The notes under the pieces are model-generated. The model was not told where the DNA came from. It searched no databases and saw only the letters and a list, made by a program, of their open reading frames with translations. A DNA stretch of 64,000 bases from Diaminobutyricimonas sp. LJ205 (lineage in GTDB: Bacteria; Actinomycetota; Actinomycetes; Actinomycetales; Microbacteriaceae), in assembly GCF_009755725.1 (NCBI RefSeq), contig NZ_CP046619.1:2914001-2978000 (forward strand), in the 5' to 3' direction. Made by a program: the position numbers and the translations under genes. Position 1 is the first letter of the stretch, and the number at the start of each line of letters is the position of its first letter. Shown here one piece after another: positions 22,646 through 53,377 of this stretch.

Positions 22646-22650
22646 CACCC

Positions 22651-25062: not shown

Positions 25063-25193
25063 GACACAACACCGATGTGTAATAGTGGAGATGCTTCACC
25101 GTGGCCCCCATTGTGGGGACGGCACTGAGGCCGCAACAGAATATCTCCCACGCATATCCCCGGTTCTCCCAACACATTGGAGTACCCGCGAGC

Positions 25194-31692: not shown

Positions 31693-32409
31693 GTGAAGCT
31701 TGCCGACATCCTCCGCGCTGCCGGACGCCGATGGTATGTGCTCGTCGCAGGTTTCCTCGCCACCGCCGGACTCGCTTACGGCATCCTGCAGATCGTTCCG
31801 ATCACCTACGACCTTCGCGCATCCTTCCTTTTGATTCCGCCGCCGCTCAGCACGGAGGAGCGCGACGCGAACCCGTTCCTGCACCTCGGCGGGTTGGATA
31901 TCGTGGCCGGCGTCCTCGCGAAGGCCCTCAATGACGAGTCCACGGTGGAGGAGGTCATTCCCAAGGGCGACACCACGGAGTACACCGTGCAGGCCGACGG
32001 CAGCGTACCGGGTTCAGTTCTGGAGATTGTCACCGTCTCCGAAGAACCGGACGTGGCGCTCAGTGTCACAAGAGATGTGCTCGCTCGGGCAGAAGTGCGC
32101 TTGGCGGAACTCCAGGACGCGGTCGATGCGCACCCACGCGCCGAGATCGGCATGATGGTCATCACCGACAACACGAAGGCGACGCCGGACCCGTCTGGCC
32201 TCGTTCGCGCGCTCATTGCTGCGATTGGGGCCGGCCTCGCCATCACTTTCCTCCTTGCCGTCTCTGTCGACGCCCTCGTCCTTCGCCGTCGGGATCGCCG
32301 CAGCCAGCGGAGCGTCGGACACGCGGATGCCGTTCGGCGGCAGCCTTCACGGGCGATCCCCGGAACAGTGGCGCCCCAGGCAACCGCAGTGGGACACGAC
32401 GCGAGATGA
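31693..32409 (+). CDS. second chain-length-determinant-like membrane protein
   Basis: The 238-residue protein mirrors the preceding one: MKLADILRAAGRRWYVLVAGFLATAGLAYG gives a cytosolic start and a first helix (about 13-33), TYDLRASFLLIPPPLS follows as in Wzz proteins, and a second helix lies near 177-195 (AAIGAGLAITFLLAVSVDALVL). It also lacks a kinase domain and ends in a basic, low-complexity tail. The GTG start is favoured by the GGGAG upstream. Its stop overlaps the next ATG by four bases, coupling it to the polymerase/ligase. Confidence 0.75.
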   Translation: MKLADILRAAGRRWYVLVAGFLATAGLAYGILQIVPITYDLRASFLLIPPPLSTEERDANPFLHLGGLDIVAGVLAKALNDESTVEEVIPKGDTTEYTVQADGSVPGSVLEIVTVSEEPDVALSVTRDVLARAEVRLAELQDAVDAHPRAEIGMMVITDNTKATPDPSGLVRALIAAIGAGLAITFLLAVSVDALVLRRRDRRSQRSVGHADAVRRQPSRAIPGTVAPQATAVGHDAR

Positions 32410-33815
32410 AGCGGATGTCGCGGCCGGGAATGCCGGATACTGCGCGCCTGTGGCCCCTTTCGGGCGTGCTGCGACCGGAGCCGCGACGCGCGCATCTCGC
32501 CGCTACCGGCCTCACCCCGCGAGGAGTCGACGCCCTGTGGTTGGTCAGTGCGTACGTGATCGCGCTCCTGGCGATTCCGGCGAACCTTACGGTCCCCCCT
32601 CTCGGGTCTGTCGGCACGCCTGCGGTCATTATTGGGCTGGGTGCGCTGATGTGGTGGATCAGCGCGCAGATGAACAAGAGCCGCGCCACCCTGTCGCCGT
32701 CCCAGCCGGTACGGCGGTCCATGATCTGGTTCACGGTGGCCGTCCTCATCAGCTACGTCGCTGCTACCACGCGGCCCATCGAAGCGGTTGAGTTGTCCGG
32801 TTCCGACCGAGGGTTGCTGCTGATCGCGTCGTGCCTGGGCATAGTGCTGCTCGCTTCGGATGGGCTTCGCAGCGTGTCAGAGATCGAGCAGAGCCTGCGG
32901 GTCCTGGTCGCTCTGGGCGGCCTCGTCGCAGTACTCGGCGTCACCCAGTTCGTCACCGGTCAGCCGATCATCGATGGGATCCAGATTCCCGGGTTGAGTC
33001 CGAACAACGCGATCCAGAACATCACCGACCGGGACGGGTTTGTTCGTGCGGCGGGCACATCGACGCATCCCATCGAATTCGGGGTCGCCCTGTCCATGAT
33101 CCTGCCGTTGGCGCTGCACCTTGCCTTCGCCGACCCGACGAGAAACCGTCTTGCCCGCTGGTTCCCGATTGCCGCCATTGCCATTGCAGTGCCGATTACG
33201 ATCTCACGCTCTGCCCTGGTCGGCGTTGTCGTCGGCCTGGTCATGATCTTGCCCTCGTGGCCGCGCCACCGTCGGCACATGGGCTATCTTGCGATCGGAG
33301 TGCTGGCGGTTGGCATCTACCTCACGATCCCGGGCATGCTCGGAACTCTCACGAAGATGTTCACGGGCATCGGGGAGGACGGAAGCGCCGCCTCCCGGGT
33401 CGACAGTTATGCGCTGGCGTTCGACTTCATCGCCCGGTCACCGATTATCGGACGTGGACTGTCCACGTTCTTGCCGCAGTACCGAATTCTGGACAACCAG
33501 TACCTCGGGTTGCTGATCGAAGTGGGCATCGTCGGCACGGTGGCCCTCCTGGCGGTGTTCTTCGTGGCAATCCGGACCGCGCTGATCACGCGTCGCCGCA
33601 GCGCTGATGAACGAACCAGAAGCCTGGCACTCGCCCTCGCGGCCTCGGTGGCCGCCGGAGCGTGCAGTTTCGCGACATTCGATGCGTTCGGGTTCCCGCA
33701 GGTGTCCTGCGTCGTGTTCCTCTGTATCGGGATGATCGGTGCCTTGTCGAACCTCATGGGGCGTGAAATCTTGAGCAGCGGCCTGCCAACTCCAACCACC
33801 GTGAGGACGCGATGA
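32406..33815 (+). CDS. O-antigen ligase / Wzy-like polymerase
   Basis: The 469-residue protein has about 11-12 hydrophobic segments. In the long loop before the last helices it has the O-antigen ligase pattern GIGEDGSAASRVDSYALAFDFIARSPIIGRGLSTFLPQ with conserved Arg residues, plus the membrane motif ISRSALVGVVVGLVM. Such proteins polymerise repeat units or ligate a polymer to a carrier. The ATG overlaps the upstream stop (ATGA) and its own stop overlaps the next gene, so all three are in one operon. Polymerase or ligase cannot be decided from sequence. Confidence 0.85.
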   Translation: MKRMSRPGMPDTARLWPLSGVLRPEPRRAHLAATGLTPRGVDALWLVSAYVIALLAIPANLTVPPLGSVGTPAVIIGLGALMWWISAQMNKSRATLSPSQPVRRSMIWFTVAVLISYVAATTRPIEAVELSGSDRGLLLIASCLGIVLLASDGLRSVSEIEQSLRVLVALGGLVAVLGVTQFVTGQPIIDGIQIPGLSPNNAIQNITDRDGFVRAAGTSTHPIEFGVALSMILPLALHLAFADPTRNRLARWFPIAAIAIAVPITISRSALVGVVVGLVMILPSWPRHRRHMGYLAIGVLAVGIYLTIPGMLGTLTKMFTGIGEDGSAASRVDSYALAFDFIARSPIIGRGLSTFLPQYRILDNQYLGLLIEVGIVGTVALLAVFFVAIRTALITRRRSADERTRSLALALAASVAAGACSFATFDAFGFPQVSCVVFLCIGMIGALSNLMGREILSSGLPTPTTVRTR

Positions 33816-34857: not shown

Positions 34858-35955
34858 TCAGTACCCGTACCGCCGCCACCGCCGCCAGCGCATCCGGCCC
34901 TCAAGATCGCGTTGAATCGCTCTCGCCCAAGCGGCGGAACTGGGGCGCACGGCGCCGGCGGCCAGGTCTCCTGCCTGCACACCCAGCAGCTTCTGGCAGT
35001 CTCTCCAAAGCGGGGAACGTGTGACATCGGGATCGACGGCGGTGGCGAACGCGATGGCCCTCGGTCCCAGCTGCTCCGACGAATCCGAGCCGGTTCGCAC
35101 GGCGTCGACGACCAAGCCCAGCGCTTCACTTGCCAGGCGCTGTGCGGCGAGCTTTCGCCATGCCTCCGCTTTGGCTGGTTCGACTCGGGTGCGTGTCAGG
35201 AAACTCTCATATGCGAGGCGGCGGTGCTCGAGGTCATCGACCGGAGCGGAGAAGTTGGTTTGCATCATGCTTGCCTGGTGGACCCGACGGTACGCCTGGT
35301 CAGGGCCGTTCACGCGGGCCACATCGGCGATCTCAGCGATGCGCAGCCACATCTCGAGATCGCCAGAGTGGGGTAGCTCTGGTCGGTAGTAACCCGCTTC
35401 GTGATGCACCGACGTCCGCACGACGGCCTCTGGGCTGTAGATGATGCTGAGGCCGCGACGAAGCTGAGCGGTGATCCAGTCGAGACCCTTCCAGATCGAC
35501 CAGTTGCGTAGCCGGGCTTCCCGAATGGTCGGCGCAGTCTCGAACGACTGCGGGTGCCCGTACACGAGCCCTACTTCGCGCCGATGCTCCATGATTGCGG
35601 TCGCCCGCTCGAGCGCTCCGGGAGCCAGCAGGTCGTCGGCAGAGAGCAAGACAACGTAGTCGGAATCAGCCTGTGAGAGGCCCTCGTTGTAGGTGGCGAT
35701 GTGGCCCCTGTTGATGCGGTGCTCGGTCAAGCGCACGTCACGGTAGCGGTCGACGAGGCGCTCGGCGACGCGGACGCTGTCGTCGGTCGACGCATCGTCG
35801 ATGATGTGTACTTCTGCGGTGACACCCGGCTGCTCGACGATGCTGCTGACGCAACTCTCCAGGAAGTGGCCGTAGTTGTAGCAGGGCACGACGACCAGCA
35901 CGTGCGGCCGTCGCCCGGCTGGTAGTCGTCTGGCTGTGCTAAACACCGGGCTCAC
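34858..35955 (-). CDS. GT2-family glycosyltransferase
   Basis: The protein of 365 residues starts at GTG 35955 (MSPVFSTARRLPAGRRPHVLVVVPCYNYG), inside the 3' end of the upstream gene; the frame stays open back to 36093 but the extra residues are not conserved-looking. The GT2 motifs are VVVPCYNYGHFLESCVSSI, EVHIIDDASTDDS and SDYVVLLSADDLLAPGALERA. HSGDLEMWLRIAEIADVARVN marks the acceptor region. The C-terminal 100 residues are arginine-rich and helical. It is the last gene of the large minus-strand polysaccharide operon. Confidence 0.85.
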   Translation of the reverse strand: MSPVFSTARRLPAGRRPHVLVVVPCYNYGHFLESCVSSIVEQPGVTAEVHIIDDASTDDSVRVAERLVDRYRDVRLTEHRINRGHIATYNEGLSQADSDYVVLLSADDLLAPGALERATAIMEHRREVGLVYGHPQSFETAPTIREARLRNWSIWKGLDWITAQLRRGLSIIYSPEAVVRTSVHHEAGYYRPELPHSGDLEMWLRIAEIADVARVNGPDQAYRRVHQASMMQTNFSAPVDDLEHRRLAYESFLTRTRVEPAKAEAWRKLAAQRLASEALGLVVDAVRTGSDSSEQLGPRAIAFATAVDPDVTRSPLWRDCQKLLGVQAGDLAAGAVRPSSAAWARAIQRDLEGRMRWRRWRRYGY

Positions 35956-37108
35956 CAGCCAGATCCCGGTCGGCCCTAACAGCACGATGCATCCCTGGTT
36001 GGCTGGGGAATGCATCGAGGATGCGGGAAGCGACCTGCTGCCAGGTTGCGTCCGCGGCAGCCGTCGAGGCGGCTGATCCCCGACGCGGCCCATCCACCGG
36101 ATCGGTCAGGCGCAACATTGCTGCGGCGATCGCGTTGATGTCACCAGGCGGCACAGTCAGAGCTCCTTCGCCAAGCAACTCGCCCGCGCCTCCTTCGCTC
36201 GTTGCAACCACCGGTAGACCCGCCGATCCAGCCTCCAGGTAGGCGATCGGCGACGGGTCGAACTTGCTCGGCAGCACAAAACAGGTCGAGCTGGCGAAGA
36301 GCTCGTCAAGAAGCTGCTGCGCAGCGAAATCGTCGCGTTTCAGCAGACCATGTGAAACCACGCCTGGCTCGTGGATCGGCGGAATACGACCGACCAAGTG
36401 CAGTGTCGCGGTCGGCTGCCGTTCCCGGACCAGCCGGAACGCTGCGATGACGGCATCCCCGTTCTTCCGCTCCCAATCGATGCCGACGAACAAATAGCGG
36501 GGGCTCGACCAGTCGCGGAGGTTCCCGCCCAGTTGGCTTCGTGAGCGATGTCCCATTCCGACGACTCGGACGGATTCGGCGGGAACTCCGTAGTGCCGGG
36601 AGAACGATGCCGCCGCCCATTGCGTGCTGACGCAGTTCACGTCCGCGGCCCCAGCACTTTGGCGCTCCCAGTGAATCCAGCGCTCGACAAAGCGGCGCTC
36701 GTAGCCGTATTGGCGGAGGTCGGAGTCCGGATGCTCCCACATCTGGGCCAGCGTGGCATCGTCGTACGTGACACAGGGAACGCCCTCCGGGATCACAGCA
36801 GCGAGGTCGTAGAGCTCGGTGCTCATCGCAACTATCCCGTCGAGGGGAAGCGCCCGCTCAATCGTCAGACGGAGCACAATCCCTCGTGCGGCGCGCCGTA
36901 TCGGCAGCCGTTCATTGATCGCCATGTTCCGAGTGCGAATCCTGGCCAGGAGGGCGACCGCATGGTGGAACCCGGGAGGGAGGCCGGCACCGATAGGCAC
37001 GACCTCGACGCCGAGGGCAGCGAATCCGCTTGCCAAACCGGCCGGAGTGCCGGACCATTCGGTCGGCCCGATGGGATCGTCGCTGGGGTAGAGCAGGCCG
37101 ATTCGCAT
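35939..37108 (-). CDS. GT4-family glycosyltransferase
   Basis: The 389-residue protein starts MRIGLLYPSDDPIGPTEWSGTPAGLASGF, a typical GT4 N-terminus, and has the donor-site pattern CFVLPSKFDPSPIAYLEAGSAGLPVVATSEGGAGELL in the C-terminal half. YLFVGIDWERKNGDAVIAAFRLVRE is the usual linker segment. The ATG at 37108 overlaps the flippase stop (TAATG); the long frame upstream of it is not used. Its stop overlaps the next GT2 start. The specific sugar is unknown. Confidence 0.86.
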   Translation of the reverse strand: MRIGLLYPSDDPIGPTEWSGTPAGLASGFAALGVEVVPIGAGLPPGFHHAVALLARIRTRNMAINERLPIRRAARGIVLRLTIERALPLDGIVAMSTELYDLAAVIPEGVPCVTYDDATLAQMWEHPDSDLRQYGYERRFVERWIHWERQSAGAADVNCVSTQWAAASFSRHYGVPAESVRVVGMGHRSRSQLGGNLRDWSSPRYLFVGIDWERKNGDAVIAAFRLVRERQPTATLHLVGRIPPIHEPGVVSHGLLKRDDFAAQQLLDELFASSTCFVLPSKFDPSPIAYLEAGSAGLPVVATSEGGAGELLGEGALTVPPGDINAIAAAMLRLTDPVDGPRRGSAASTAAADATWQQVASRILDAFPSQPGMHRAVRADRDLAGEPGV

Positions 37109-38628
37109 TATTGCCTCCTTCGCCGAAGCGATATCCGGCGCCAGCGCGTGGGCAACTGGCGCAGCAGGATTTTTCGTGTCGCAAACGCGTACGATGCGGC
37201 CCCCACGACAAGGCCGATGATCAGGCGTAACCACTCAGGCTGCACGGTCACTGTGACGGCCCACGCAAGCAGGCCCGCCGCAATTGCTGCCGCGGACGGG
37301 AGCATCAGAGCGCGAAGCATCGCAGTGAGGCGAACTCCTGAAACGTGCCGGAGCACCGTGAGATACACCGGGAGCGTCACCAGGGCGGCGACGATGATGT
37401 GCGCAGCAGCCACCCCTGGCAGGTCCCAGAAGGTGATCCCGATCCACATGACGGGGGCCAGCACGGCAAGCACCGCAAGCTGCACCCCCAACAGCACGCG
37501 CGTTCGGCCGAATGCGATGACAATGTTGGCGTAAAGCAGCCCGAGCACTGAGATACCGCCGTAGCAGGCGAGAACCCGGAGCACTTCGGCGGCTTCGCGC
37601 CACTGATCGCCGTACAGCGTCACAATCAACGGTTCTGCGAATACAAACAGGCAAGCCGCGAGCGGGAACGCTACCCAAGCCACCAGTTGTGTCGCGTTGA
37701 CGATTGCGGCGGGGACGTCGCCATCGTCGCGGCGAACTGCCGAGATGGCCGGCAGCACCAGCCCGTTGAGCATTGCCCCGATGATGGCCGTTGCCCACAT
37801 CGAGACCCCGAAAGCGAGGGTATAGAGCCCGAGGTCTACGACTCCGAGCATGCGACCGATGAATACATAGTCGATGTTGGCCACCAGCTGACTCAGAAGG
37901 TTTGCAGCCGCGAGCGGCAGCCCGAACGCCAAGAGGGGGCCTACGAACCCGCGATCGAATCCGGGCCAGTATCGGGCGGAGGCGGGGATGAGGAGCATGA
38001 TTCCGGCGACCAGATGCCCCACGACGCGTGACCACGCGAAACCCTCGGGCCCCCAGCCCGCCACGCTCAGGCCGATCAGCACAGCACTGCCAACCACGAA
38101 CGACACCGCGGTTGCCCTGAACACGAGGTCCTGTCGGAACTGCCGTTGCAGTAATGCCCCGGGGACGGCAAATGGGCCGATCATCGCCACGCTGATCGCC
38201 AGGATTCGCACGGCATCCGAGGCTGCGGCGGCTCCCAGGGCGGCCGCTATTACGTCGGCGAAGGATGCCATGAGGATGCCGAGCCCCACGCTGGTGGCGA
38301 TTGCGATAGTCGCGACGGTTGGGGCAATCCGGTCTGCGTCGAGATCCGCCCGTGCCACCGCAGAGGCGATGCCCAGTTCGGCGATGCTGACCACGAACGC
38401 GTGCACGGTGACCGCGATGGCGAACAGCCCCACTACCTCAGGAGCGACGAGGCGGGCTACGACCACCATCACCAACACATTGCTGACGCGCATGATCATC
38501 GTTCCGCCAGCCGCCCACAATGCCCCCCTGCGCACATTGGTCGCGAGCGCTGTCCCCGACGATTCCGCCGGCGCGTCAGCAGATGGCAGCCGCGGCAGAC
38601 CAGGGGTGTCGGTTCGGCGAGTGCTCAC
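37108..38628 (-). CDS. Wzx-like polysaccharide flippase
   Basis: The 506-residue protein belongs to the MATE/flippase superfamily that moves lipid-linked repeats across the membrane. It has about 12-14 hydrophobic segments, with characteristic RRGALWAAGGTMIMRVSNVLVMVVVARLVAPEVVGLFAIA at the start and PGALLQRQFRQDLVFRATAVSF. The GTG at 38628 overlaps the upstream aminotransferase stop (GTGA). The frame remains open to 39027, but that part overlaps the aminotransferase gene and is Arg-rich nonsense. It couples sugar-nucleotide synthesis with the last glycosyltransferases. Confidence 0.9.
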   Translation of the reverse strand: MSTRRTDTPGLPRLPSADAPAESSGTALATNVRRGALWAAGGTMIMRVSNVLVMVVVARLVAPEVVGLFAIAVTVHAFVVSIAELGIASAVARADLDADRIAPTVATIAIATSVGLGILMASFADVIAAALGAAAASDAVRILAISVAMIGPFAVPGALLQRQFRQDLVFRATAVSFVVGSAVLIGLSVAGWGPEGFAWSRVVGHLVAGIMLLIPASARYWPGFDRGFVGPLLAFGLPLAAANLLSQLVANIDYVFIGRMLGVVDLGLYTLAFGVSMWATAIIGAMLNGLVLPAISAVRRDDGDVPAAIVNATQLVAWVAFPLAACLFVFAEPLIVTLYGDQWREAAEVLRVLACYGGISVLGLLYANIVIAFGRTRVLLGVQLAVLAVLAPVMWIGITFWDLPGVAAAHIIVAALVTLPVYLTVLRHVSGVRLTAMLRALMLPSAAAIAAGLLAWAVTVTVQPEWLRLIIGLVVGAASYAFATRKILLRQLPTRWRRISLRRRRQ

Positions 38629-39782
38629 CGCAGCATCCGTTCCCTGCTGAGAGCATCGTTCACGCTGGCCAATGCATCGGCGACCCGTTCCTGCTGTGAG
38701 CGTGTGATGTGCGGGAACATCGGCAAGGAGAGGATCTGCTCTGCCGCGGTTTCCGCGATGGGAAACTGGCCGCGGCGATACCCGGCACCCGCATAGGCGC
38801 CGGTCAAGTGCAGAGGCGTCGGGTAGTGGATGGCGGCGCCAATCCCTTGCTCGAGCAGCGCATCGAGCACGCGGTCCCGCGAGGCCGCCAGTATCCGGAT
38901 GACGTAAAGATGCCACACATCGGTGGATCCCGCTCGAGAACGGGGAAGCCGGATGGCCCCGCTCGCCTCGAGCGGTCCCAGCAGCTCGGCGTAGGCAGCC
39001 GCGGCCACACGACGCCGGGCGTTCCACTCCTCGAGCCGCCGGAGCTTCGCCGAGAGCACTACCGCTTGGAGCGCATCCAGCCGAGAGTTCACGCCGATGC
39101 GGTCGTGCACGTACTTGACTGAGCTTCCATGTGCACCGAGAGACCGGACTGCGTGAGCGAGTTCAGCGTCGTTCGTCGTGACGGCGCCGGCGTCGCCGGC
39201 TGCCCCCAGGTTCTTGCCGGGGTAGAAGCTGGTCGCGGCAATTGCGCCCAACGCACCGGTACGTCCTTCCGTGCCTGACGCCCCCTGAGCTTGCGCGTTG
39301 TCTTCGACGATCGGGATCCGCGCACCGACCGTGGTCGCGGTGAGAGAGTCGACCGGCGACACCTGACCGTAAAGATGGACGGGCACGATCGCTTGCGTGC
39401 GGGGCGTGATGGCAGCCTCGACGGCGGGAGGCTGGATGAGCAACTGCTCATCGTCGACGTCGACGAAGATCGGCCGCGCCCCGATGCGGGACACCGCCTC
39501 CGCGGTCGCAACGAAGGTGTTGACCGGCACTATCACCTCACCTCCGGGCATCACTCCGACCGCGCGCATCGCCAGCTCGAGTGCGTCGGTGCCATTCGCC
39601 ACACCGATGCAGTGGCGCACCCCGGTGAAAGCGGCGAACTCGCTCTCGAACTGATCGACTGCCGGTCCGCCGACGAACGCCGCTGTCTCGAACAGCTCCT
39701 CCCAGGCGGGAAGTACCTCTGCGACGACCTCGGCGTTCTGGGCCGCGATATCCAGGAATGGGATGGCTTGCTGCTCGGTCAT
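38625..39782 (-). CDS. DegT/DnrJ/EryC1 aminotransferase (WbpE-like)
   Basis: The 385-residue PLP enzyme aminates a keto-sugar nucleotide. The family pattern is complete: [49 protein letters not shown], the PLP lysine in [35 protein letters not shown] and [15 protein letters not shown]. The whole resembles WbpE, which forms the 3-amino group of UDP-GlcNAc(3NH2)A. The ATG overlaps the stop of the PglD-like gene. WbpB-like and WbpD-like partners are at 42553 and 17008. Confidence 0.87.
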
Positions 39783-40417
39783 ACTCGAACCTCCAACGGC
39801 CGCGCGGGCACGCCGATCCAGGTCTCGCCGGATGGGAGCTCTTTCGTCAGTACGGCACCCATTCCCAGCACGCTTCTCGACCCGACCCGAGTGTTCTCGC
39901 GTACTGCCGCGTTCATGCCGAGATAAGCCGCCTCGCCCACCCAGACGTGTCCGCCCAGGGCCACACCTGCGCAAATGGTGGCGAACCGCTCAACGAGAAC
40001 ATCGTGTGTGAGCGTCGCGTTCGGCATGATCACGACGTGTCGGCCGATGGAGACATTGGACGTCATCACCACGCCGGCCAGCAGGATGCTCCCCGCACCG
40101 ACGACGCAGCTGGGAGGAATCTCAACCCCGGCGGCGACGACGGTCACGTAATCACGTTCGGTGCGACCCTGGTCGGCTAAGCGATGCTCCAGGCCTGCTC
40201 GGACGGTCCCGGCGCCGGCGCACAAGAGCAAGCGGACCCCGGGGAAGCGTTCAGCGTCGGCTACGGTACCAACCACGGTCATACCGTCGATGGTGCGCTC
40301 GAGCTTTTTCGGGTCATCATCGAGAATCCCGATCACCTCATGCTCGCCGGAGCGGCGGATCACCTCGAGCGCCTCTCGTGCCAATCCGCTCGCGGCGACC
40401 AACAGCACGTCAGCCAT
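39779..40417 (-). CDS. PglD-like sugar O/N-acyltransferase
   Basis: The 212-residue protein has the two-part structure of NeuD/PglD enzymes: an N-terminal Rossmann-like lobe ([38 protein letters not shown]) and a C-terminal left-handed beta-helix with [35 protein letters not shown] and [22 protein letters not shown]. It would acetylate an amino sugar nucleotide, probably the product of one of the aminotransferases on either side. I start at ATG 40417 where the overlap with the upstream stop is eight bases; the longer frame to 40462 is less likely. Confidence 0.83.
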
Positions 40418-41567
40418 GACGCACCGCCGTAGAGGAGACGATGGCGTCGACGACGACGGCAAGCTGGCTCTCGTCCAGCTGGTGGTACAGCGGAAGGATC
40501 AGGGTGCGCTCGGTCAGCCATTCGGTGACCGGCAGCGGCACCCGCAGTGACCGGCTGCCCAGGTACGGTGGCTGCCGGTGCGCCGCCATGATGCCGCGCC
40601 TGGCGGAGACGCCCGACTCGGCGAGGTGGATGAGGAGCCCTTCCCTGCCAAGCGGGTACTGGTCATCCAGTTCGATCCACATCGACTGGAAGTTGCCGGT
40701 CCCGTGTGCCGGATCGGCGACCACGCGGATGCCGGGCACGCCCACCAGCGCGCGGGTGTACTCGTCGGCCAGTCGGCGACGAGTGCGCACCAGCTCGGGC
40801 AACTTGCCGAGCTGCACGATGCCGACCGCGGCTTGCAGGTCGGTCATCCGGTAGTTGAAGCCGATTTCGTCGTAGACCTCGGCCGGCGCGACCAACGCGC
40901 TGTGGCGTTCGGCCGCGGACACGCTCATGGCGTGCTCACGCAACCGGCGAGCGCGCTGCGCCCAGTCCGCCCGGCTGGTGGTCAGCATCCCGCCCTCGCC
41001 CGTGGTCAGCAGCTTCCTCGGGTGGAACGACCACGCCGTCAGCTCGGCACCTGCGCCGACCGGGCGGTCGTGATAGCGGGAGCCGGCGCCACAAGCGGCG
41101 TCCTCGATGACGGTGATGCCGAGCGGGTCGCAGAGCGCCCGGATCGGCTCGAGGTCCACCGGCACCCCACCCTGGTCCACCGCAATCACCGCCCGGGTGC
41201 GGTCGGTGATCAACGGCGCCAGGGTCTCGGCGGTGACGTTGCCGGTGACCACATCGACGTCGGCGAAGACGGCGAGCGCGCCGACGTAGCTGGGCGCATT
41301 GGCAGTGGCGATGAAGGAGAACGAGGGAACGATGACCTCATCGCCGGCCCCGATTCCGGCGACCACCAGCGCCAGATGCAGCGCGGTGGTGCAGTTCGAG
41401 GTGGCGACAGCGTGCTCAGCCTGCATGGCTTCGGCGAACAGCTGCTCAAACCGGGCCACCTGCGGGCCCTGGGCCACCCAGCCGCTCTCGATCACCGCGG
41501 TGACGGCGGCGACCTCGTCCGCTCCGAGCCACGGCTTCATCACATTGATGCGATCGGTGCCGGTCAT
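40410..41567 (-). CDS. DegT/DnrJ/EryC1 aminotransferase
   Basis: A second PLP-dependent sugar aminotransferase, 385 residues, distinct from the WbpE-like enzyme two genes downstream. The features are [74 protein letters not shown] and the PLP lysine in [16 protein letters not shown]. This form is seen in PglE/perosamine-synthase-like enzymes that make 4-amino sugars. No 4,6-dehydratase is evident unless the adjacent SDR plays that part. The ATG overlaps the stop of the epimerase gene by four bases. Confidence 0.86.
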
Positions 41568-42556
41568 GATGCGACCGCCCGTCCGGCGGTGATCTCTTCG
41601 CGGAGCGGCTGCCACCATTCGACCAGTTCACGCAGTCCCTGCTCGAGGCCGACCTCGGCCACGAAGCCCAGGTCGCGTTCGGCGGCGGTGACATCCGCGA
41701 GCCGTCGCACGACGGAATTGACGGCACGTTCCGGGCCGTGCTCGACGGCGAGCTCGGAGCCCATCACGCGGAGCAGCGCTTCGGCCAAGCCGAGGAGGCT
41801 GGTTTCGGTGCCGCTGGCGATGTTGTAGACGCCCTCACGCACGTCGCTTTCGGCGGCCAGCAGGTTGGCCCGGGCGATGTCCCGGGTGAAGACGAAGTCC
41901 ATGGTCTGTGCGCCATCACCGAAGATCAGGGGGGCCCGGCCATCCGCGATCCGCTCCATCCACCGCACCAGTACCTCGGTGTACAACCCGTGCACGTCCA
42001 TCCGAGGGCCGTACACGTTGAAGTAGCGCAGCAGCACGTAGTCGATGCCATACATCGCCCGGAAGCTCCTCACCATCCCCTCGTTGAACGACTTCGCGGC
42101 GCCGTAGAAGGTGTCGTTGTTGTGGTGGTGGTGCCGTTCCGAGGTGGGGAATTGTTCGGCCATGCCGTACACCGACGCGCTCGAGGCGGCGATGAGCTTG
42201 CCGACCGAGTGCCGCGCCGCGGCTTCCACGACGTTGAAGGTGCCGTCCACGAGCACCTCGAGGGCGAGTCGCGGGTCTTCGGCACACTGGGTGATCCGGA
42301 TCGCGGCCTGGTGGAAGACGATGTCCTTGCCGCGGACGAGATCGTCGACCAGGTCCTTATCGCGCAGGTCGCCCTGGATGAGGCTTACCCGTCCGCTGGC
42401 GAGGGCCGGTTCGAGATTGCCCAGTCGGCCACGGACGAGGTTGTCGAGCACGTCGACGTGCTGCACCCCGGTATCCAGCAATTGGTCGACGATTGTCGAT
42501 CCGATGGTGCCTGCTCCGCCGGTGACGAGCACGCGGGATCCGGCGAGTGCGGTCAT
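41564..42556 (-). CDS. NAD-dependent epimerase/dehydratase (extended SDR)
   Basis: The 330-residue protein acts on nucleotide sugars. It has the Rossmann motif VLVTGGAGTIGS, the SDR catalytic SSASVYG and YGAAK (Tyr-X3-Lys), and YFNVYGPRMDVHG as in GalE/WbpP-like epimerases. Unusually, a natural run of four histidines (RHHHHNN) precedes the catalytic Tyr segment. It sits between a WbpB-like dehydrogenase and an aminotransferase with four-base overlaps on both sides, so it works in the same sugar pathway. Epimerase is more likely than dehydratase, but not certain. Confidence 0.84.
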   Translation of the reverse strand: MTALAGSRVLVTGGAGTIGSTIVDQLLDTGVQHVDVLDNLVRGRLGNLEPALASGRVSLIQGDLRDKDLVDDLVRGKDIVFHQAAIRITQCAEDPRLALEVLVDGTFNVVEAAARHSVGKLIAASSASVYGMAEQFPTSERHHHHNNDTFYGAAKSFNEGMVRSFRAMYGIDYVLLRYFNVYGPRMDVHGLYTEVLVRWMERIADGRAPLIFGDGAQTMDFVFTRDIARANLLAAESDVREGVYNIASGTETSLLGLAEALLRVMGSELAVEHGPERAVNSVVRRLADVTAAERDLGFVAEVGLEQGLRELVEWWQPLREEITAGRAVAS

Positions 42557-43617
42557 GCGACAACCTCCAGTTCGGGTTCGGTGAGGATCAGCGGGACGGC
42601 GGCTCCGGCCGCGCGGAGGCTGACGGCTGCGGCGTCCAGTACGGAGAGCACCCGCAGACCGGAGCCTCCGTCGGTGAGTGGCGCCCGGCCGTCGCGGATG
42701 GCGCCGGCGAATTCGGCTGCCATCAGCGAGAGTGCCTCCCGTTCCGGCAGGGCGGGTGACCAGGTGTCACCGAGCCGGTAGGACACCGTGGAGGCCTTGC
42801 GTTCGACCGTCGCCGCGGATTGACGCTCGATGTCGACGCCGCGGTCGTAGATGCTGAGCCGCTGCTGCGGATTCAGGTCGTCCCAGACCAGGGTGCGCTT
42901 GGTGCCGCCGATGACCATCTTGCGGATCTTGGTCGGACTCAACCAGTTCACGTGGACGTGGGCGATGGCTCCGTCACCGAACGGGATGGTCAGGTAGCCG
43001 ACGCAGGCCTTGCCTGAGTGCAGCGGGTCGGCGCCCTGCGCGGAGACCGAATGTGGCCGGAGCCCGCCGGGGATGATGAAGTCGAGAATCGACAGGTCGT
43101 GCGGGGCGAGGTCCCAGAACACGTCGACGTCGGGTTGGATGAGGCCCAGGTTGATGCGCACCGAGTCGATGAAGAGGATGTCGCCGAGGACACCCTCTGC
43201 CACCAACTCGCGGATCTTCTGCACGGCAGGCGTGTAGCAGTACGTGTGGTCAGCCATCAGGACGAGCCCCCGCTCGGCTGCCGTCCGCACCATCATGCCG
43301 CCCAGCGCGCGATCATCGGCGAGCGGCTTCTCCACCACCACGTGCTTGCCGGCTTCCAGTGCTGCGGTCACGAGCGCGTGGTGGGTACGTGCGGGCGTCG
43401 CTATTGCAACAGCGTCAATGGCGTCATCCGCCAACGCTTCCTCGATGTCGGTGAGCACCGACGCCCCGCCGACCTGTTCGGCAACGCGCTGGGCGCGGTC
43501 GGCATCCTTGTCGCAGATCGCTGCCAGCGTCCAATCAGGGCTGCTGCGGAAGTTGCGGGCGAGATTCGGACCCCAGTAGCCGGCCCCGATGATCGCAATG
43601 CGAAGAGAGGTTGTCAT
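42553..43617 (-). CDS. Gfo/Idh/MocA oxidoreductase (WbpB/WlbA-like)
   Basis: The 354-residue protein binds NAD at the N-terminus (RIAIIGAGYWGPNLARNF) and has the family VVVEKPLADD motif (Lys of EKP) near residue 95. The central VFWDLAPHDLSILDFI includes the conserved H. This is the pattern of WlbA/WbpB enzymes, which oxidise C3 of UDP-GlcNAc uronic acid. It is the first gene of a seven-gene minus-strand operon. Together with the WbpE-like and WbpD-like genes in the window it fits synthesis of a 3-acetamido uronic acid. Confidence 0.83.
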   Translation of the reverse strand: MTTSLRIAIIGAGYWGPNLARNFRSSPDWTLAAICDKDADRAQRVAEQVGGASVLTDIEEALADDAIDAVAIATPARTHHALVTAALEAGKHVVVEKPLADDRALGGMMVRTAAERGLVLMADHTYCYTPAVQKIRELVAEGVLGDILFIDSVRINLGLIQPDVDVFWDLAPHDLSILDFIIPGGLRPHSVSAQGADPLHSGKACVGYLTIPFGDGAIAHVHVNWLSPTKIRKMVIGGTKRTLVWDDLNPQQRLSIYDRGVDIERQSAATVERKASTVSYRLGDTWSPALPEREALSLMAAEFAGAIRDGRAPLTDGGSGLRVLSVLDAAAVSLRAAGAAVPLILTEPELEVVA

Positions 43618-43645: not shown

Positions 43646-46600
43646 TCACGGATCGATGGCGAAGAGCACATCAACCCAGAAGTTGTGTGCGGTGAGGTCG
43701 GTTGGGTAGTCGGTGCCATAGACGTACGTTCCGCCGGTGGCTGGTGTGGACAACGGTCCACTGACCCGTGGGTCCTGCAGTCCGTTCAGGTCCACGGCGT
43801 ACCTGCCGGTTGAGCTGTGGACCGTCACGCGGTATTCCCGGCCAACCTCGAGACGGACCGATTCCGGCAGCATCGCGAGCTGCCAGCCACTAGGGCTCTC
43901 ATCGGTGAAGGCCACTTGAGCCACCCGGGTGCCGTCGGTGCTCCACAGAGATCCGGTGTGCACGCCGGTGTTGGCTGCGCCCTTGTAGAAACGGATGCCG
44001 AGGACCTCACCGGCGGCACTGGCCGTAAACCGGGTGCCGAATTGCACGGCTCTGGGGTCGTCCCACGCTGGGTGCTGAGGGATGGCGTCGGTGCCGAACA
44101 ACGAGACGACATCAACGGTGGGCGGAGCAATCGCGGTCGTGAACGACCAGGTGCCGCCGCTCAGAACGGTTTGGCCGACTGTGATCGTTGCCGTGTATCG
44201 GGTGGCCCACGCCAACGGGTCCGTCGGTGTGAATGTCAGCGTGCTGGTCGTCTCATCCCATGTGGTTGCGCCGACAACGGCACCGGCCGACCCGGTCAGG
44301 GTAAAGGTCGGCTGCTCCGAGACGTTGCTGACCTGCGCGCTCACGCTGGTGGTCGGGGCAATATCCGAAGCGCCGTCGGCTGGGCTACCACCGGTCACAA
44401 TCGGCACAGGCGTAGGTTCGGGTTCCGGCTCGGGGTCCGGTGGCGGCGGGGGTGGCACCACGGCGTCCGGCTGGAACAGCACGTCAACGAAGTAGTTGGT
44501 CGCATTCCAGCTCTCGGTCGGGTACCCGCCGGTCCCGTAGAGAAAGCGCCCATTCGCGGCAGTCTCCGCGCTGAGCGGCCCGTTGGTTCTCGCGGTTGAG
44601 AAGTAGTCGGGGGTCGCCGAGTAGGTGCCTTGCGGAGCGTAATAGGAGACGATGTAGCGCTCGCCGGGGGTCAACGCTAGCGGTGTCGCCAGGGCAGCGG
44701 TCTGCCAGCCGGCGTTCGTCTCTCCCGTGAAGGTGACCCGGGCGAGCGGCGATCCCGCGGCGGACCAGATCGTGCCGACATGCGTTCCTCCGTTGCCCAG
44801 CCCCTTGTAGAAGCGGATCGCGGTCACCGTTCCCGGCTGGTTCGTGGTGAAGGCCATGCCGAGTTCGATGGATGACGAGTCCGAAGCCGACGCGAACCGT
44901 GGCAGGGTTCCATCCAGCAACGAGTAGACGCCGGTTGGCAGGGGTGCGGCGACGGTCGTGAAGCTCCAGCCGCCGCCGGTCGGCATGCGGCCATCGATCA
45001 GCACTGTCGCGGTGAAATCGGTCCCGTAAGGAAGTGGTGCCGCCGGGGTGAAGGTCACGGTCCGGGTCGTCGGGTCGTAGCTGCTCGATCCATCGACCGC
45101 TGCAGTGCCGGCCTGCAGCCGAATCGTCGGCTCGGCGGGAGGTTCGGCGCCCAGCGTCGCGCTCACCGCGGTGGTGGGCTGCACCGGCGCTTGACCCGGC
45201 GTGGGACTACTCGCCGTCACCGACGGCAAGGCAGCAGGCGGCACGTAGCTCGTCGAGAACACCACGTCCACGAAGTAGTTGGAAGCATTCCAGGATGCCT
45301 CCGGCATCACTCCGCCGCCGCCATACCGGTACCGGCCGTTGGCGACGGTGTCCGCTGTGAGGGGACCGTTGGTGTGCTGCGTCGTGAAGTATCCGCCGCT
45401 GTAGGAGTAGTAGCCGTTCGGCGCGTGGTAGGAAACGACGTACCTGACTCCGGGATTGAGCATGACCGGCGTCGCGAGTGCCGCGGTCTGCCAACCCTGA
45501 GCGGTCTCACCCGTGAACGTGACTTGAGCCATCCGCTCTCCGGTCGACGACCAGAGCGACCCGACGTGGGTTCCGGTGTTGCCTGGCCCTTTGTAGAAGC
45601 GGATCGCCGTGACCGCTCCTGGCTCGGCCACCGAGAAAGCCGTGCCCAGTTCGACCGGCGCGCTTTCGGGCACTGTCACTGTGGCGGGTAGCTCACCAGC
45701 GAACAGCGAGTAGTCCCCGAGCTGCGGCACGTAATCGGTGGTGAGGAAAGACCATTGTCCGCCGACGATCGTGGCGGCACCGACTTGCACCCGTGCCTGG
45801 TAAACCGTGCCTGGCTCGAGCGGGCTGCCCGGCGCAAAACTGATTGTCTTGGACGTGGCGTCCCAGGTCGCCGTCCCCGAAACCGGACCGTCGGTGTTCG
45901 ACACCGTGATGGTCGGTTCGGCTCCCTGCGGCGCGCCCGAGAGCACCGCGCTGATCTGCGAGGCCAGGGGCACATCGGTGGCGCCCGACACCGGCGTGGT
46001 CGACGTCGTCATGATTGCCGACGGGTCATCAGGGTCGGTGACGAAGATCACATCGACGAAGTAGTTGGTTGTTGAACTCGATGCGGGGAACCCGGTGCCG
46101 TACGTGTAGGCACCACCCGAAGCGGGAACCCTGAGCGGCCCGCTGGTGTAGGGGCTCGCGAAGGCACTCAAGGTTGCCGAGTAGCTGCCGGCGGTGGCCC
46201 GGTAAGACGCGACATAGGTCGACCCGGCTCGAACATCGACGGGCGTACTGAAGTAGACCGTCTGCCAGCCGCTGGTCGTCTCACCGGTGAAGGTCGCTGA
46301 GGCGAGCTGCCGCCCATCGGCTGCCCACAGAGTGCCGACGTGTGTGCCGACATTGCCCGCACTCTTGTAATACTTCAGCCCCATGATCGAACCGCTGGTC
46401 TGCGGGGTGAACTTCACGCCAAGCTCGACCGATGCCCGATCGCCGACCTCGAGGATCCCGGGCACCTCGTTGCCCTGGAACAACGAGCATGGGCAGCTCG
46501 CACTGACGTCGGTGGTCGCCGTGGTGAACGACCAGCCCGCCCCCTCGACGAGCGGCTCTCCTCCAATGCTGGTCGCAGCCAGTTGCACGAAGTAGGTGCT

Positions 46601-49237
46601 TCCCGTGGCCAGCGCGCCGGCCGGCGTGAACGTCACGATTCGCGCATCGGGGTCGTAGCTCGTTGCGCCGCTGACGGCGGAGCCGAGTCCATCTCGCATG
46701 GTCACGGCGACCGAGGACGGGTCAACCTGCGTCGTGAATCGAGCGGTGATGGCCGTCGATGGCACTACTGCGGTCGCGCCGGGGGCGGGCCACTGTTCCA
46801 CGGCGATCAACGGCGTCCGGTCAGAGGTATCGAAGACGACATCCACGAAGTAGTTCGACCCGTCGTACCGATTTGCAGGGAACTGGCCCAGGTTGCCGTA
46901 TACACCGGCTGTCGCGCCTTGATATCCGGGTGCGATGGTGATGGGTGACGATGATCGGGCGGCGTACGGCCAGTAGCGCGGGCTCACGGAATAGTGGCCC
47001 GCGGGTGCGCTGTACGACACGGTGTAGACCTGTCCCGCCAAAACGGGCACCGCTTCGGTGAAGTAGGCGGTCTGCCAGCCGGCTGCCGACTCCGAAGTGA
47101 ACGCGACGGACCCGAGAGCGCTACCCGCGGCGTCCCACAGGGTTCCGACGTGGTTGCCGGTGTTGAGCTCGCTCTTGTAGAAACGCACGCCTGCGACGTA
47201 ACCGTCGGCCTCTGGCGAGAACTGCAGTCCGAGCTCAACTGCGGAGCGATCGCCCGAGTCGACCGTTGCGGGAACTTCCGTTCCGAGCGCGCTCGCCGGA
47301 CCCGTCACCGTAAGGCTCACGCTGGTGGGCGTCGACGGATAGTTGGCACTGTCATCGATCGCGCGCGCCATCAGCGCGGCGGCTCCCAAGCCGGATTGAA
47401 CGTACGTATAGCTCCAGTTCGTCGTGCCCTCGGCCAGCCGCCAGGTCGCACCACCATCGGTGGACACTTCGACGCCCGCCACCCGTCCGCCGGCATCATT
47501 CGCCGTGCCGGTAACGGTGACTTGCGCACCGTTGGCGATCGATGCGCCATTGACGGGTGAAACCACACTTGCCGTCGGCGCGGCACTGTCCGTGCTCGCA
47601 GAAGCCTGGACAAGCCCGGCCATCAGCGTGGCCGGCTGCGCACCCATGTCGGCGAGGACATTGACCTGCGCTTGCTGCATTCGCGGATCCGGGGGTGCGC
47701 CATCGCCATCATGAAAGTCGTCGAGACCCCACGACCACTGCACGCTGGCCGACGAAAAGACAAGGGCCCCGCTGGCAGCCCGATACAGGGTCAGGTTATG
47801 AGTCGTGGACCCCGGCTCCACGGTGTTTCCATAATCCAGCAGGTACTGCGGAGTGGGACCGGTTGTGGTGGACAGGTGGATGAGACCCTGCGGTCGGAAG
47901 CCGTTGTCGATGTCCTCATTGGACTCGTACCCCACCGTGTGGGGAGCCAACTCGGCTGACGTCCCGGCAGCCATCGAGGCCAGGCTGGTGTTTCGCCAGA
48001 GGCGCAGCTTGCCTTCCTGAGCGCTGACGGTGACCGGAAGGTCATCGTGGTTGACCATGTACATCGTGCCGGTGAGGGCATTCTCTGGCGTCCCTGCCCC
48101 CGAACTCTGGGGAGCGAACCGGGGGTCACGCCAGGTTCCCGTCCACTCAGTCGAGGGGTCGATCTTCGAGTTCGACCAGGTCTCTTTGTACGACACAAGC
48201 GTCCGATAGGCCGCGCGATCCGAGGACGCCGCAGGCTCATAACGTGTGCGCCAGTACCCTTCATTGCCTGTCAGGAACTGCAGATTCACGCCCGCGTCCC
48301 GAGCGGCCTCGATGTTCCGTCGCTGTGCACCGGACCAGTACTCGTCGTGACCGACAGACAGGAAGACGTCGTGGTTCAGCAGGTGGCCGCCGAACCGATC
48401 CGTGTCCACCCCACTTGCGTAACTGACGTCATAGCCGTTGCGTTCGAGGAAGCGGACCAGGGCGTACTCGCTGGAGAAATAGAAGTCCCGCTGGGTGTCG
48501 CCATTTCGGGTGGCGAACGGCCGGTTGTAGCTGATCTTGTACGCGCGCCCGTTGGCGGCCCCTTGGTAGAAGTCAGAGCCGCCGTAGCTGTTATAGGCAT
48601 GCCAGGTCGGATCGGATGTCTGGAACAAGATGTCTGAAGTGCTGCTGTCATCGCGAACGATGAAGGTGATGTGGCTCTCGTCACCGTTGTCGGTCCGAAG
48701 CAGATGAGCGATGTAGACGCCGGAGACGGCGTTGCTCGGGACGCTCCACGAGGCAGACACCCCCCAGGTGCCGCAGTCGTAGAGTTCGGTCGCCTGGTCG
48801 CTGATGCATTCCGGTTGCATCTGCGGTAGCGCTGCTGACGGCTCAACCGATGTGATGTAGCGCGCACCCAGGCCCTGATACCAACCGGTGCGGTAGATGT
48901 CGATCGTGTAGTCAGCGGCATCCGTATCGATCTTGAAATCGACGCGACTGCCGATGTTCACGCTGATGTCAGTCGCGAAGCCTTGGATGCTGGGGTCACC
49001 TGCGCCTCGGATATCCCAGATTGCCGGGTCCGTGCCGGGTTGGCTGTTCTCGCAGGAGATCTTGTTTCCGCCCGCCCCGCACGGCTCAGCTGCCGAAGCG
49101 ATCGAAGCGGGGCCAAGCACCGTCAGCGAGGTGAGCACGAGCGCGCTCGTCGCGAGCAGGCTCGCGAAACCGGCAACACGGCGACGCAACGGGGCGTCGC
49201 GCGGGTCCACTGACGCTTCAACCATGTGAGCCTGCAT
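43646..49237 (-). CDS. giant secreted protein: DMFase-like domain, Ig-like domains and five DUF4082 modules
   Basis: About 1,863 residues. A signal peptide (about 14-50, ending SIASAAEPC) is followed by an N,N-dimethylformamidase-beta-like domain (about 60-540: HAYNSYGGSDFY, SVGHDEYWSGAQRRNIEAARDAG, FLTGNEGYWRTRY). Then come an Ig-like domain (about 553-645), and five DUF4082 modules alternating with four Ig/Big_5-like modules to the C-terminus. A Pro/Glu linker lies at about 1593-1610. There is no LPXTG motif or terminal helix, so it is probably released or loosely held. The start ATG is uncertain; one four codons downstream (49225) is possible. Confidence 0.85.
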   Translation of the reverse strand: MQAHMVEASVDPRDAPLRRRVAGFASLLATSALVLTSLTVLGPASIASAAEPCGAGGNKISCENSQPGTDPAIWDIRGAGDPSIQGFATDISVNIGSRVDFKIDTDAADYTIDIYRTGWYQGLGARYITSVEPSAALPQMQPECISDQATELYDCGTWGVSASWSVPSNAVSGVYIAHLLRTDNGDESHITFIVRDDSSTSDILFQTSDPTWHAYNSYGGSDFYQGAANGRAYKISYNRPFATRNGDTQRDFYFSSEYALVRFLERNGYDVSYASGVDTDRFGGHLLNHDVFLSVGHDEYWSGAQRRNIEAARDAGVNLQFLTGNEGYWRTRYEPAASSDRAAYRTLVSYKETWSNSKIDPSTEWTGTWRDPRFAPQSSGAGTPENALTGTMYMVNHDDLPVTVSAQEGKLRLWRNTSLASMAAGTSAELAPHTVGYESNEDIDNGFRPQGLIHLSTTTGPTPQYLLDYGNTVEPGSTTHNLTLYRAASGALVFSSASVQWSWGLDDFHDGDGAPPDPRMQQAQVNVLADMGAQPATLMAGLVQASASTDSAAPTASVVSPVNGASIANGAQVTVTGTANDAGGRVAGVEVSTDGGATWRLAEGTTNWSYTYVQSGLGAAALMARAIDDSANYPSTPTSVSLTVTGPASALGTEVPATVDSGDRSAVELGLQFSPEADGYVAGVRFYKSELNTGNHVGTLWDAAGSALGSVAFTSESAAGWQTAYFTEAVPVLAGQVYTVSYSAPAGHYSVSPRYWPYAARSSSPITIAPGYQGATAGVYGNLGQFPANRYDGSNYFVDVVFDTSDRTPLIAVEQWPAPGATAVVPSTAITARFTTQVDPSSVAVTMRDGLGSAVSGATSYDPDARIVTFTPAGALATGSTYFVQLAATSIGGEPLVEGAGWSFTTATTDVSASCPCSLFQGNEVPGILEVGDRASVELGVKFTPQTSGSIMGLKYYKSAGNVGTHVGTLWAADGRQLASATFTGETTSGWQTVYFSTPVDVRAGSTYVASYRATAGSYSATLSAFASPYTSGPLRVPASGGAYTYGTGFPASSSTTNYFVDVIFVTDPDDPSAIMTTSTTPVSGATDVPLASQISAVLSGAPQGAEPTITVSNTDGPVSGTATWDATSKTISFAPGSPLEPGTVYQARVQVGAATIVGGQWSFLTTDYVPQLGDYSLFAGELPATVTVPESAPVELGTAFSVAEPGAVTAIRFYKGPGNTGTHVGSLWSSTGERMAQVTFTGETAQGWQTAALATPVMLNPGVRYVVSYHAPNGYYSYSGGYFTTQHTNGPLTADTVANGRYRYGGGGVMPEASWNASNYFVDVVFSTSYVPPAALPSVTASSPTPGQAPVQPTTAVSATLGAEPPAEPTIRLQAGTAAVDGSSSYDPTTRTVTFTPAAPLPYGTDFTATVLIDGRMPTGGGWSFTTVAAPLPTGVYSLLDGTLPRFASASDSSSIELGMAFTTNQPGTVTAIRFYKGLGNGGTHVGTIWSAAGSPLARVTFTGETNAGWQTAALATPLALTPGERYIVSYYAPQGTYSATPDYFSTARTNGPLSAETAANGRFLYGTGGYPTESWNATNYFVDVLFQPDAVVPPPPPPDPEPEPEPTPVPIVTGGSPADGASDIAPTTSVSAQVSNVSEQPTFTLTGSAGAVVGATTWDETTSTLTFTPTDPLAWATRYTATITVGQTVLSGGTWSFTTAIAPPTVDVVSLFGTDAIPQHPAWDDPRAVQFGTRFTASAAGEVLGIRFYKGAANTGVHTGSLWSTDGTRVAQVAFTDESPSGWQLAMLPESVRLEVGREYRVTVHSSTGRYAVDLNGLQDPRVSGPLSTPATGGTYVYGTDYPTDLTAHNFWVDVLFAIDP
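43649..47284 (-). repeat. five DUF4082 repeats within the giant gene
   Basis: The modules lie at about 46823-47284, 46034-46486, 45251-45709, 44471-44926 and 43649-44107. Each repeats the same marks: VELG or IELG, F..E..G....RFYK, GTHVGSLW or GTIW, FTGET...GWQTA, a YVVSY element, and NYFVDVVF at the end. The last copy is most divergent (AVQFGTRF, FWVDVLF). Ig-like modules with the pattern P..GA.DV and a closing W.FTT separate them. Confidence 0.88.
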
Positions 49238-49381
49238 TCGGGTTACAGGAACTACGCGGCAAGAAAAGGGGGTGCTACGCGGGGGTAAGCCGCGTCGTGT
49301 CGGCGTCAGGGAACGCCGGTATCGGGTGTGCAAACACTAAGCCAGCGTGTCTGCGAGGGTCAATAGCTGACTTGTGCTAGC
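49238..49381. other. upstream region of the giant gene
   Basis: No gene fits this 144-base stretch. On the minus strand it carries a good promoter (see separate entry) and an untranslated leader of about 90 bases before the start codon. No ribosome-binding site of standard strength is visible ahead of ATG 49237. Confidence 0.5.
49334..49363 (-). promoter_or_regulatory. putative promoter of the giant DUF4082 gene
   Basis: On the minus strand, TTGACC (49358-49363) and TAGTGT (49334-49339) are separated by 18 bases, matching sigma-70-type -35 and -10 elements. Transcription would begin near 49326, about 90 bases before the start codon. This is one of the better promoter matches in the window. 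Confidence 0.6.
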
Positions 49382-52600: not shown

Positions 52601-53377
52601 TCACCGCCGGAAGAACACCTCAACCGGCTCCCCCGCTGCCTCCATCACCGCTTGGGGAAGGACATCCCAATGCTCACCGTCAGAAACCCACGACGGCCGG
52701 GCGACCTGCGAGCGATGGGCATCGAGCGCGTGCAGCTTCGTCGAGACGAAGTCGGCGGCCTCGACCACTACCGCGCGCCGGCCGAGCACAGCTGCCACGG
52801 CATCGACGAGGGATCCCAGTCGATGGCCAGGCTGGAGCGGCCAGGAGCGCCACATCCACACCGGATACTCAAAGAGGGCACACGTCCTGGCTCCGGCCAC
52901 TGCGCGCCGTGCCGCCCGCCCGACCGCCGCGTGGTCGGGATGCGGTTCATCGGCGCACGTGGCGAAGACGTCGTCGGGCTGGAACTCATCAATCAGGTCG
53001 CCGAGGAGTCCAACCAGGCGGTCCTCATGAACCGCGACGGTTCCGTCTTCGATGTCGAGCCATCGCACCGCGCCGGCTTCCAGCCCGAGCCGCTCGGCGG
53101 CGACCCGCATCTCGTCGCGCCGAATCTCAGCGAGCTCGTCCGGGCTCATCGCGGTGCTCCGGTGCGAATGCCGGCCGTCCGTGACGATCACGATCATGAC
53201 GCTCATCCCGGTCGCGCGCCTGCGGAGAATGGTCGCGCCGCAACCGAGCGTTTCATCGTCGGGGTGTGGGGCGATGACCAGCGCCGATCGGCCCGCCGAC
53301 TCAGCGGTGACGTCGCGTGCCCGCCGGATAATGGCGGCACGGGCGAGCCGGCGGATGCGAGCGACGATGGCTGACAC
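52601..53377 (-). CDS. PIG-L family deacetylase
   Basis: The 258-residue protein has the zinc site APHPDDETLGCG at about 36-47 and DEPHPDHAAVGRAARRA further on (second set of ligands). These enzymes remove acetyl groups from GlcNAc-containing molecules such as mycothiol precursors or glycolipids. The N-terminal RIRRLARAAIIRRARD is basic and may be peripheral. It is convergent with the MocR gene, and upstream lies a palindrome. The exact substrate is unknown; it is not a clear MshB. Confidence 0.88.
   Translation of the reverse strand: MSAIVARIRRLARAAIIRRARDVTAESAGRSALVIAPHPDDETLGCGATILRRRATGMSVMIVIVTDGRHSHRSTAMSPDELAEIRRDEMRVAAERLGLEAGAVRWLDIEDGTVAVHEDRLVGLLGDLIDEFQPDDVFATCADEPHPDHAAVGRAARRAVAGARTCALFEYPVWMWRSWPLQPGHRLGSLVDAVAAVLGRRAVVVEAADFVSTKLHALDAHRSQVARPSWVSDGEHWDVLPQAVMEAAGEPVEVFFRR

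Follow-up and report, generated by a model that had tools for sequence, protein, structure and literature searches.

A giant DUF4082 protein with a dimethylformamidase-like head at a bacterial exopolysaccharide locus: a candidate secreted amidase

What might a protein do that joins a dimethylformamidase-like head to five copies of DUF4082, and is its position beside polysaccharide genes a clue to its role? We studied these questions in a window of 64,000 nucleotides (the whole stretch of DNA that was analysed) of Diaminobutyricimonas sp. LJ205. A first-pass annotation of this DNA had placed the gene at 43646-49237. These coordinates are correct, and the strand to be added is minus: the minus-strand open reading frame covers 43646-49333, the ATG at 49237 gives a protein of 1,863 residues, and the plus-strand reading of 43646-49237 was ruled out by its many stops. 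The product is a giant secreted protein with a signal peptide visible by eye. Our Pfam scan recovered the domains that had been described, i.e., a DMFA2_C head (PF20254, dimethylformamidase-like; residues 111-506, 325 bits against a cut-off of 27, and nearly full length with profile positions 1-369 of 374), Ig-like modules, and DUF4082 in five stretches (737 bits). The Ig-like modules are one Big_7 (residues 554-615), which follows the head, and four stretches of Big_5, which separate the DUF4082 copies.

The architecture is widespread, with at least 594 confirmed head relatives, and is common in databases under the name "DUF4082 domain-containing protein". Five copies of DUF4082 are nothing special: relatives have one to five in 78 of 79 loci, and one locus has none according to the HMM made here. 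The earlier statement that no function is known for this architecture agrees with the literature searched, where a table row of a single paper is the only mention of DUF4082. Within the open-access literature searched (subscription papers were mostly outside the search), we found neither the term "dimethylformamidase beta subunit", nor dimethylformamidase and exopolysaccharide together, nor any text tying DUF4082 or the dimethylformamidase-like head to exopolysaccharide, nor a demonstration of amidase activity or glycan binding for such proteins.

A series of sugar genes comes after the giant gene in the same orientation. A Gfo/Idh/MocA oxidoreductase (42553-43617) starts 28 bp after it, and is succeeded by an NAD-dependent NDP-sugar epimerase/dehydratase (41564-42556), a DegT-type aminotransferase (40410-41618), a NeuD/PglD-type sugar acyltransferase (39779-40462; NCBIfam NeuD_NnaD, 166.3 bits, cut-off 160.8), a second DegT-type aminotransferase (38625-39974), a Wzx-type flippase (37108-39027; Polysacc_synt_3) and two glycosyltransferases within 34858-37234 (GT4-like at 35939-37234, GT2-like at 34858-36093). 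The coordinates of the two DegT genes and of the flippase are those of open reading frames, and their true starts may be internal. Because the giant gene is co-directional with the sugar genes and ends 28 bp before them, it seems to open that operon. The first-pass annotation had put it next to the polysaccharide operon; the adjacency stands, with the correction that the giant gene appears to belong to the operon as its first gene and would be transcribed with it. The good promoter of its own that had been attributed to it was not borne out by our scan, which gave no sigma-70-like site upstream of 49237. A strong sigma-70 promoter was likewise rejected, since the two hits in the region are on a par with the shuffle mean of 1.7. 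By eye, one finds a weak TTGACC, 18 nt and TAGTGT at 49363-49334.

A further arm of the locus lies on the plus strand. It encodes an open reading frame with a hexapeptide acyltransferase in its C-terminal part (16093-17655), which we take to be WbpD-like, a WecG/TagA/CpsF glycosyltransferase (21767-22645), a UDP-ManNAc-type dehydrogenase (22486-23907; NCBIfam PRK11064, 562 bits, cut-off 459), a member of the UDP-GlcNAc 2-epimerase family (23920-25062) and a Wzy_C polymerase/ligase-type protein (32406-33815), together with an MFS protein, glycosyltransferases and a protein that shows weak beta-propeller signs. The gene set of the locus presumably leads to N-acylated amino sugars, e.g., diacetamido uronic acids as in the WbpB/WbpE/WbpD pathway. 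The same arm holds a second DUF4082 gene (25101-26738, plus strand), whose product of 545 residues joins one DUF4082 to a right-handed beta-helix; a search by sequence gave no solved relative of the beta-helix part. The genome (one contig, 3.22 Mb) has two DUF4082 genes, both within the window. Single-DUF4082 genes similar to the one at 25101-26738 are found near Wzy or WecG in genomes of the family, and in two of these (G001, G085) beta-helix relatives without DUF4082 stand in its place.

Are DUF4082 proteins more common near polysaccharide loci than elsewhere, as the link proposed in the first-pass annotation demands? We scored six core genes (two DegT types, PglD, Wzx, Wzy and WecG) and called a locus linked when at least two were present. 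This was the case for 46 of 79 related loci, which are the nearest of at least 594 head relatives and come from many groups, versus one of 40 random 20-kb windows, all taken from ten Microbacteriaceae genomes; the sole positive control window, counted as such, overlaps a DUF4082 cluster. The giant protein is thus encoded in a Wzx/Wzy polysaccharide locus with a conserved linkage above chance. The two-gene rule was failed by 33 of the 79 loci, and by 23 of the 64 that span at least 20 kb. Taken singly, Gfo/Idh was found in 40 of the 79 loci, the epimerase in 39 and Wzx in 31. Labels such as GT2a, GT2b and GT2c in our neighbourhood tables are loose, as they denote best phmmer hits to window proteins.

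The family survey gave the same picture. Among 150 genomes, 18 encode DUF4082 and 25 encode WecG (one of these hits, in G012, which lacks DUF4082, is below the family cut-off). WecG occurs in 12 of the 18 genomes with DUF4082 versus 13 of the 132 others (Fisher p 3e-7), and lies at most 25 kb from DUF4082 in eight of the 12 genomes with both, where 0.34 would be expected. Polysaccharide genes stand beside the DUF4082 gene in 15 of the 18 genomes, window included, and in 11 of those 15 Gfo/Idh directly follows the multi-DUF4082 gene on the same strand; G023 and G055 have the locus divided between contigs. Sugar genes are missing from the Rathayibacter-type genomes G046 and G116, the latter of which keeps the MFS and propeller-like genes, and from G049, where the DUF4082 match is partial (32 bits). 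G056 has a second head gene that is alone in its 20 kb.

Outside the family the linkage recurs in part of the loci. The phylum sample contained DUF4082 in 11 of 296 genomes (eight above the cut-off), and among six non-family genomes examined there, two had sugar genes (G234, G394) and four had none (G314, G338, G332, G240). Gfo/Idh is present in six of 14 loci from outside Actinomycetota. On rhizobial plasmids, of which we examined seven records among 102 listed under Rhizobium and others, the same sugar module (acyltransferase, Gfo/Idh, DegT, acyltransferase, epimerase, DegT, translocase) stands beside the giant proteins in four records and is missing beside them in the Bradyrhizobium 195, Sinorhizobium B11 and Pararhizobium records. 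Two Arthrobacter-type plasmids also lack the module, and Arthrobacter loci are among the 33 that failed the two-gene rule. The survey across genomes and rhizobial plasmids therefore supports the proposed link of the giant protein to polysaccharide loci.

What chemistry might the head perform? We used residues 80-510 (431 residues; 47708-49000, minus strand) for the profile, the structural model and the tree. A profile built from 43 heads, taken from the window and from 42 of the 79 loci, hit in the PDB, best of all, an N-acetyl-(R)-beta-phenylalanine acylase (1.5e-13; PDB 8HUY, 8I59, 8I5A), then dimethylformamidase (DMFase, 1.8e-8). DMFase Y399, Y440, H519, E521 and N547 align to Y215, Y224, H297, E299 and N325 of the head, our candidate catalytic residues, and the PDB mutant entries Y440A and E521A mark two of these columns. 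Across 120 aligned rows, which include pieces and cases of the same gene fetched twice, the five positions show zero substitutions, and four or five rows are gapped there. As judged from this alignment, the head appears to possess the residues of a DMFase-like metal site of two tyrosines and one glutamate, plus the catalytic histidine and the asparagine. According to the accessible text of the work on DMFase (PMC7686228), the two tyrosines and the glutamate bind Fe3+, the variants Y440A, E521A and H519A are inactive, the substrates are mainly small formamides, and the large subunit is inactive alone, the small subunit being needed.

The structure prediction that had been suggested for the head gave the dimethylformamidase/acylase fold. 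The AlphaFold2 model (pLDDT 88.3) matches the acylase best (Z 34.9, 2.6 A over 397 residues) and the DMFase large subunit nearly as well (Z 33.5-34.0; for PDB 6LVB, 33.5 and 2.8 A over 400 residues), and the next unrelated chains follow at Z 8.5. The acylase, an N-acetyl hydrolase by its deposited name, differs in having no DUF4082 and a longer chain (about 775 residues versus 431), and shares about 20% identity with the head; the partner of Y224 is not resolved in the alignment. The open-access literature searched yielded no paper on it. DMFase shares both the fold and all five residues, whereas its pentraxin domain II (residues 74-337 in the accessible text) is absent from the head, which at 431 residues is too short for it and aligns to 400 residues of the 762-residue DMFase chain; nor did the Pfam scan show such a domain. 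DMFase also differs, as far as that text goes, in being a small-formamide enzyme that needs a small subunit, whereas the giant protein is secreted and multidomain.

Each of the 11 rhizobial giant genes (L207, L209-L214; seven records) is directly followed by a gene for a CobW-type GTPase, an assignment checked with Pfam in three of the 11. In the accessible part of PMC9164220, GTPases of the CobW family mature Fe-type nitrile hydratase. By analogy, the rhizobial GTPase is perhaps a metal chaperone for the head, which fits a metal-dependent head. We rejected CobW as a general partner, as the other loci searched had none and it was found in the seven rhizobial records only.

The repeats were examined in the same way. 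DUF4082 (PF13313) matches six places in the genome, with 134-182 bits against a cut-off of 28.4. In the giant protein the five copies span about residues 654-798 (46844-47278), 924-1061 (46055-46468), 1183-1323 (45269-45691), 1445-1584 (44486-44905) and 1718-1855 (43673-44086), all on the minus strand. Against the other four, copy 3 shows 39-60% identity, and against the DUF4082 of the second gene in the window 39%. The DNA repeats inside the giant gene are 62-77% alike, and the copies are hence old; a recent tandem expansion was rejected because the copies are only 39-60% identical.

We modelled copy 3 with 8-9 flanking residues from an alignment of 106 sequences, i.e., the six copies of the window and 100 of 348 others; some of the 349 copies counted are the same gene fetched twice. 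The model is a beta-sandwich (pLDDT 97.4), predicted to be PHR/lectin-like over most of DUF4082. It fits best the lectin-like domain of Cwp84 (Z 13.2, 2.7 A, 136 of 159 residues), followed by a mycobacteriophage central fibre (Z 12.7), the PHR domain of BTBD2 (Z 12.1, 136 residues, 2.8 A) and a staphylococcal phage baseplate (Z 11.7). Domains linked to esterases score 8.4-9.4 (polyvinyl-alcohol esterase Z 9.4, carbohydrate esterase PbeAcXE Z 8.8), and CBM chains 5-7. The likeness to Cwp84 and PHR domains is one of fold, the structural identity being only 8-14%. Pfam PHR weakly matches two rhizobial relatives (29.4 and 31.7 bits), and no single stretch passes alone. By sequence, the search for a solved DUF4082 relative turned up short matches to WD40-type chains plus a single weak hit elsewhere, and nothing more. 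The predicted fold suits a polymer-binding module, and fold alone shows no function: in the accessible part of PMC4089489, the Cwp84 lectin-like domain lacks the usual carbohydrate-binding region and its function was unclear to the authors. Tblastn gave no match to DUF4082 in phage records. A predicted viral protein of 830 residues (BFVD A0A7S5QUK7_1) fits the DUF4082 model with a TM of 0.86 and 23% identity.

Taking head, repeats and neighbourhood together, we give about an even chance to the giant protein being a secreted iron amidase that removes N-acyl groups from its cognate exopolysaccharide while anchored by DUF4082. The protein would be made together with a Wzx/Wzy-type exopolysaccharide and then exported; the DUF4082 modules would hold the enzyme on the polymer, with the Ig modules as spacers; and the head, of dimethylformamidase/N-acetyl-beta-phenylalanine acylase fold and probably iron-dependent, would hydrolyse N-acyl (acetyl or formyl) groups of amino sugars. 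Acetyl is a fair guess for the released group, given that the closest relative with a solved structure bears the name of an N-acetyl acylase, whereas DMFase would point to formyl. In the second DUF4082 protein, the same anchor may bring the beta-helix domain, perhaps a lyase or epimerase, to the polymer. The first-pass annotation had imagined a surface-acting amidase or a sugar-binding role on the encoded polymer; a putative amidase with sugar-binding repeats is our preferred reading too, and the catalytic residues and the fold matches speak for it. Several points count against this reading: DMFase, in the accessible text, needs its small subunit and has small formamides as its main substrates, the two-gene rule is failed by 33 of 79 loci, and CobW is absent from the other loci searched. 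Against the anchor, PHR domains need not bind glycans, and Cwp84 is described, in the part accessible, as devoid of the usual sugar site. More tentatively, at somewhat less than even chances, proteins with DMFA2_C and DUF4082 may be widespread unrecognised extracellular carbohydrate amidases, iron-dependent, unrelated to CE4/CE18 and recruited to exopolysaccharide loci in several phyla, with DUF4082 as the module that binds the polymer, also in other enzymes of these loci.

The long Ig/DUF4082 array would also befit a matrix scaffold or adhesin, whose repeats cross-link the polymer or attach cells to it, any enzymatic activity of the head being of secondary importance. The rhizobial relatives contain cadherin-like modules, and the giants in Kim5 and Pararhizobium adjoin type I secretion genes, beside which large adhesins stand. 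We nevertheless hold this role unlikely, for it is the head that is constant and the repeat number that varies, and the catalytic residues go without substitution through the 120 aligned rows. The same chemistry might instead be directed by a secreted amidase at N-acyl amino acids, peptides, or a polymer belonging to a competitor or host. In support, the solved relatives are, by name or assay, enzymes of small amides, and unlinked loci occur, Arthrobacter plasmids included; however, the linkage involves the same sugar-module genes in several phyla, and the window and other family genomes encode a second DUF4082 protein within the locus, which makes such a substrate quite unlikely in our eyes.

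The linkage itself might reflect an inherited neighbourhood only, with a locus shared by descent and a protein unrelated to the polymer. The choice of the 79 loci as nearest relatives would favour this, and so would a quick tree of 95 heads (those spanning at least 380 residues; short-search settings), where 57 are linked and the linked state changes 19 times versus about 30 in shuffles. The linked heads thus cluster, yet a single event does not explain them: at least 12 of the changes are required by starred branches, and the deepest drawn split has linked rows on either side. Moreover, gene order and side vary among loci while the linkage persists, and it recurs in Rhizobium and Acidobacteria. 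Descent alone is therefore a very improbable account of the linkage.

How would an amidase acting on its own exopolysaccharide compare with known systems? N-acyl removal determines how charged and how sticky several biofilm polymers are. PelA, PgaB, IcaB and Agd3 (CE4/CE18) are similar to the proposed role, as they remove N-acyl groups outside the cytoplasm from a polymer encoded or made alongside, whereas their fold and metal site differ from those of the giant protein. The enzymes named for exopolysaccharide N-acyl removal in the accessible part of PMC7229062 are CE4- or CE18-type. A CE4-type deacetylase was rejected here, the Pfam scan showing no polysaccharide deacetylase domain in the whole giant protein. 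The role is hence of a known kind, and it would be new to see it filled by this fold, metal site and anchor. If true, an iron amidase with a different fold and with polymer-binding repeats of its own would add an enzyme class, an overlooked kind of polymer-editing enzyme, and would give DUF4082 a function. It would also suggest a natural setting from which a pollutant-degrading enzyme such as dimethylformamidase could have come. The linkage makes both halves, amidase and anchor, testable on one polymer.

Some other genes accompany these loci. A PIG-L-type de-N-acetylase gene (52601-53377) lies near the locus in the window, outside the conserved neighbourhood as far as examined. The MFS gene and the gene of a membrane-anchored, weakly propeller-like protein (about 19529-20530), which together occupy 18279-20530, are recurrent partners (L036, L037, L041, L045, L046, L094, L208, L215): in Arthrobacter-type loci without sugar genes the propeller-like gene adjoins the giant gene, and in the chromosomal ones so does the MFS gene. 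In three Actinoplanes-type loci the head gene is followed by a second large open reading frame (L076 12294-17414, L079 13001-17443, L083 12750-17144), whose products of 1,465-1,707 residues have two DUF4082 and no match to the head.
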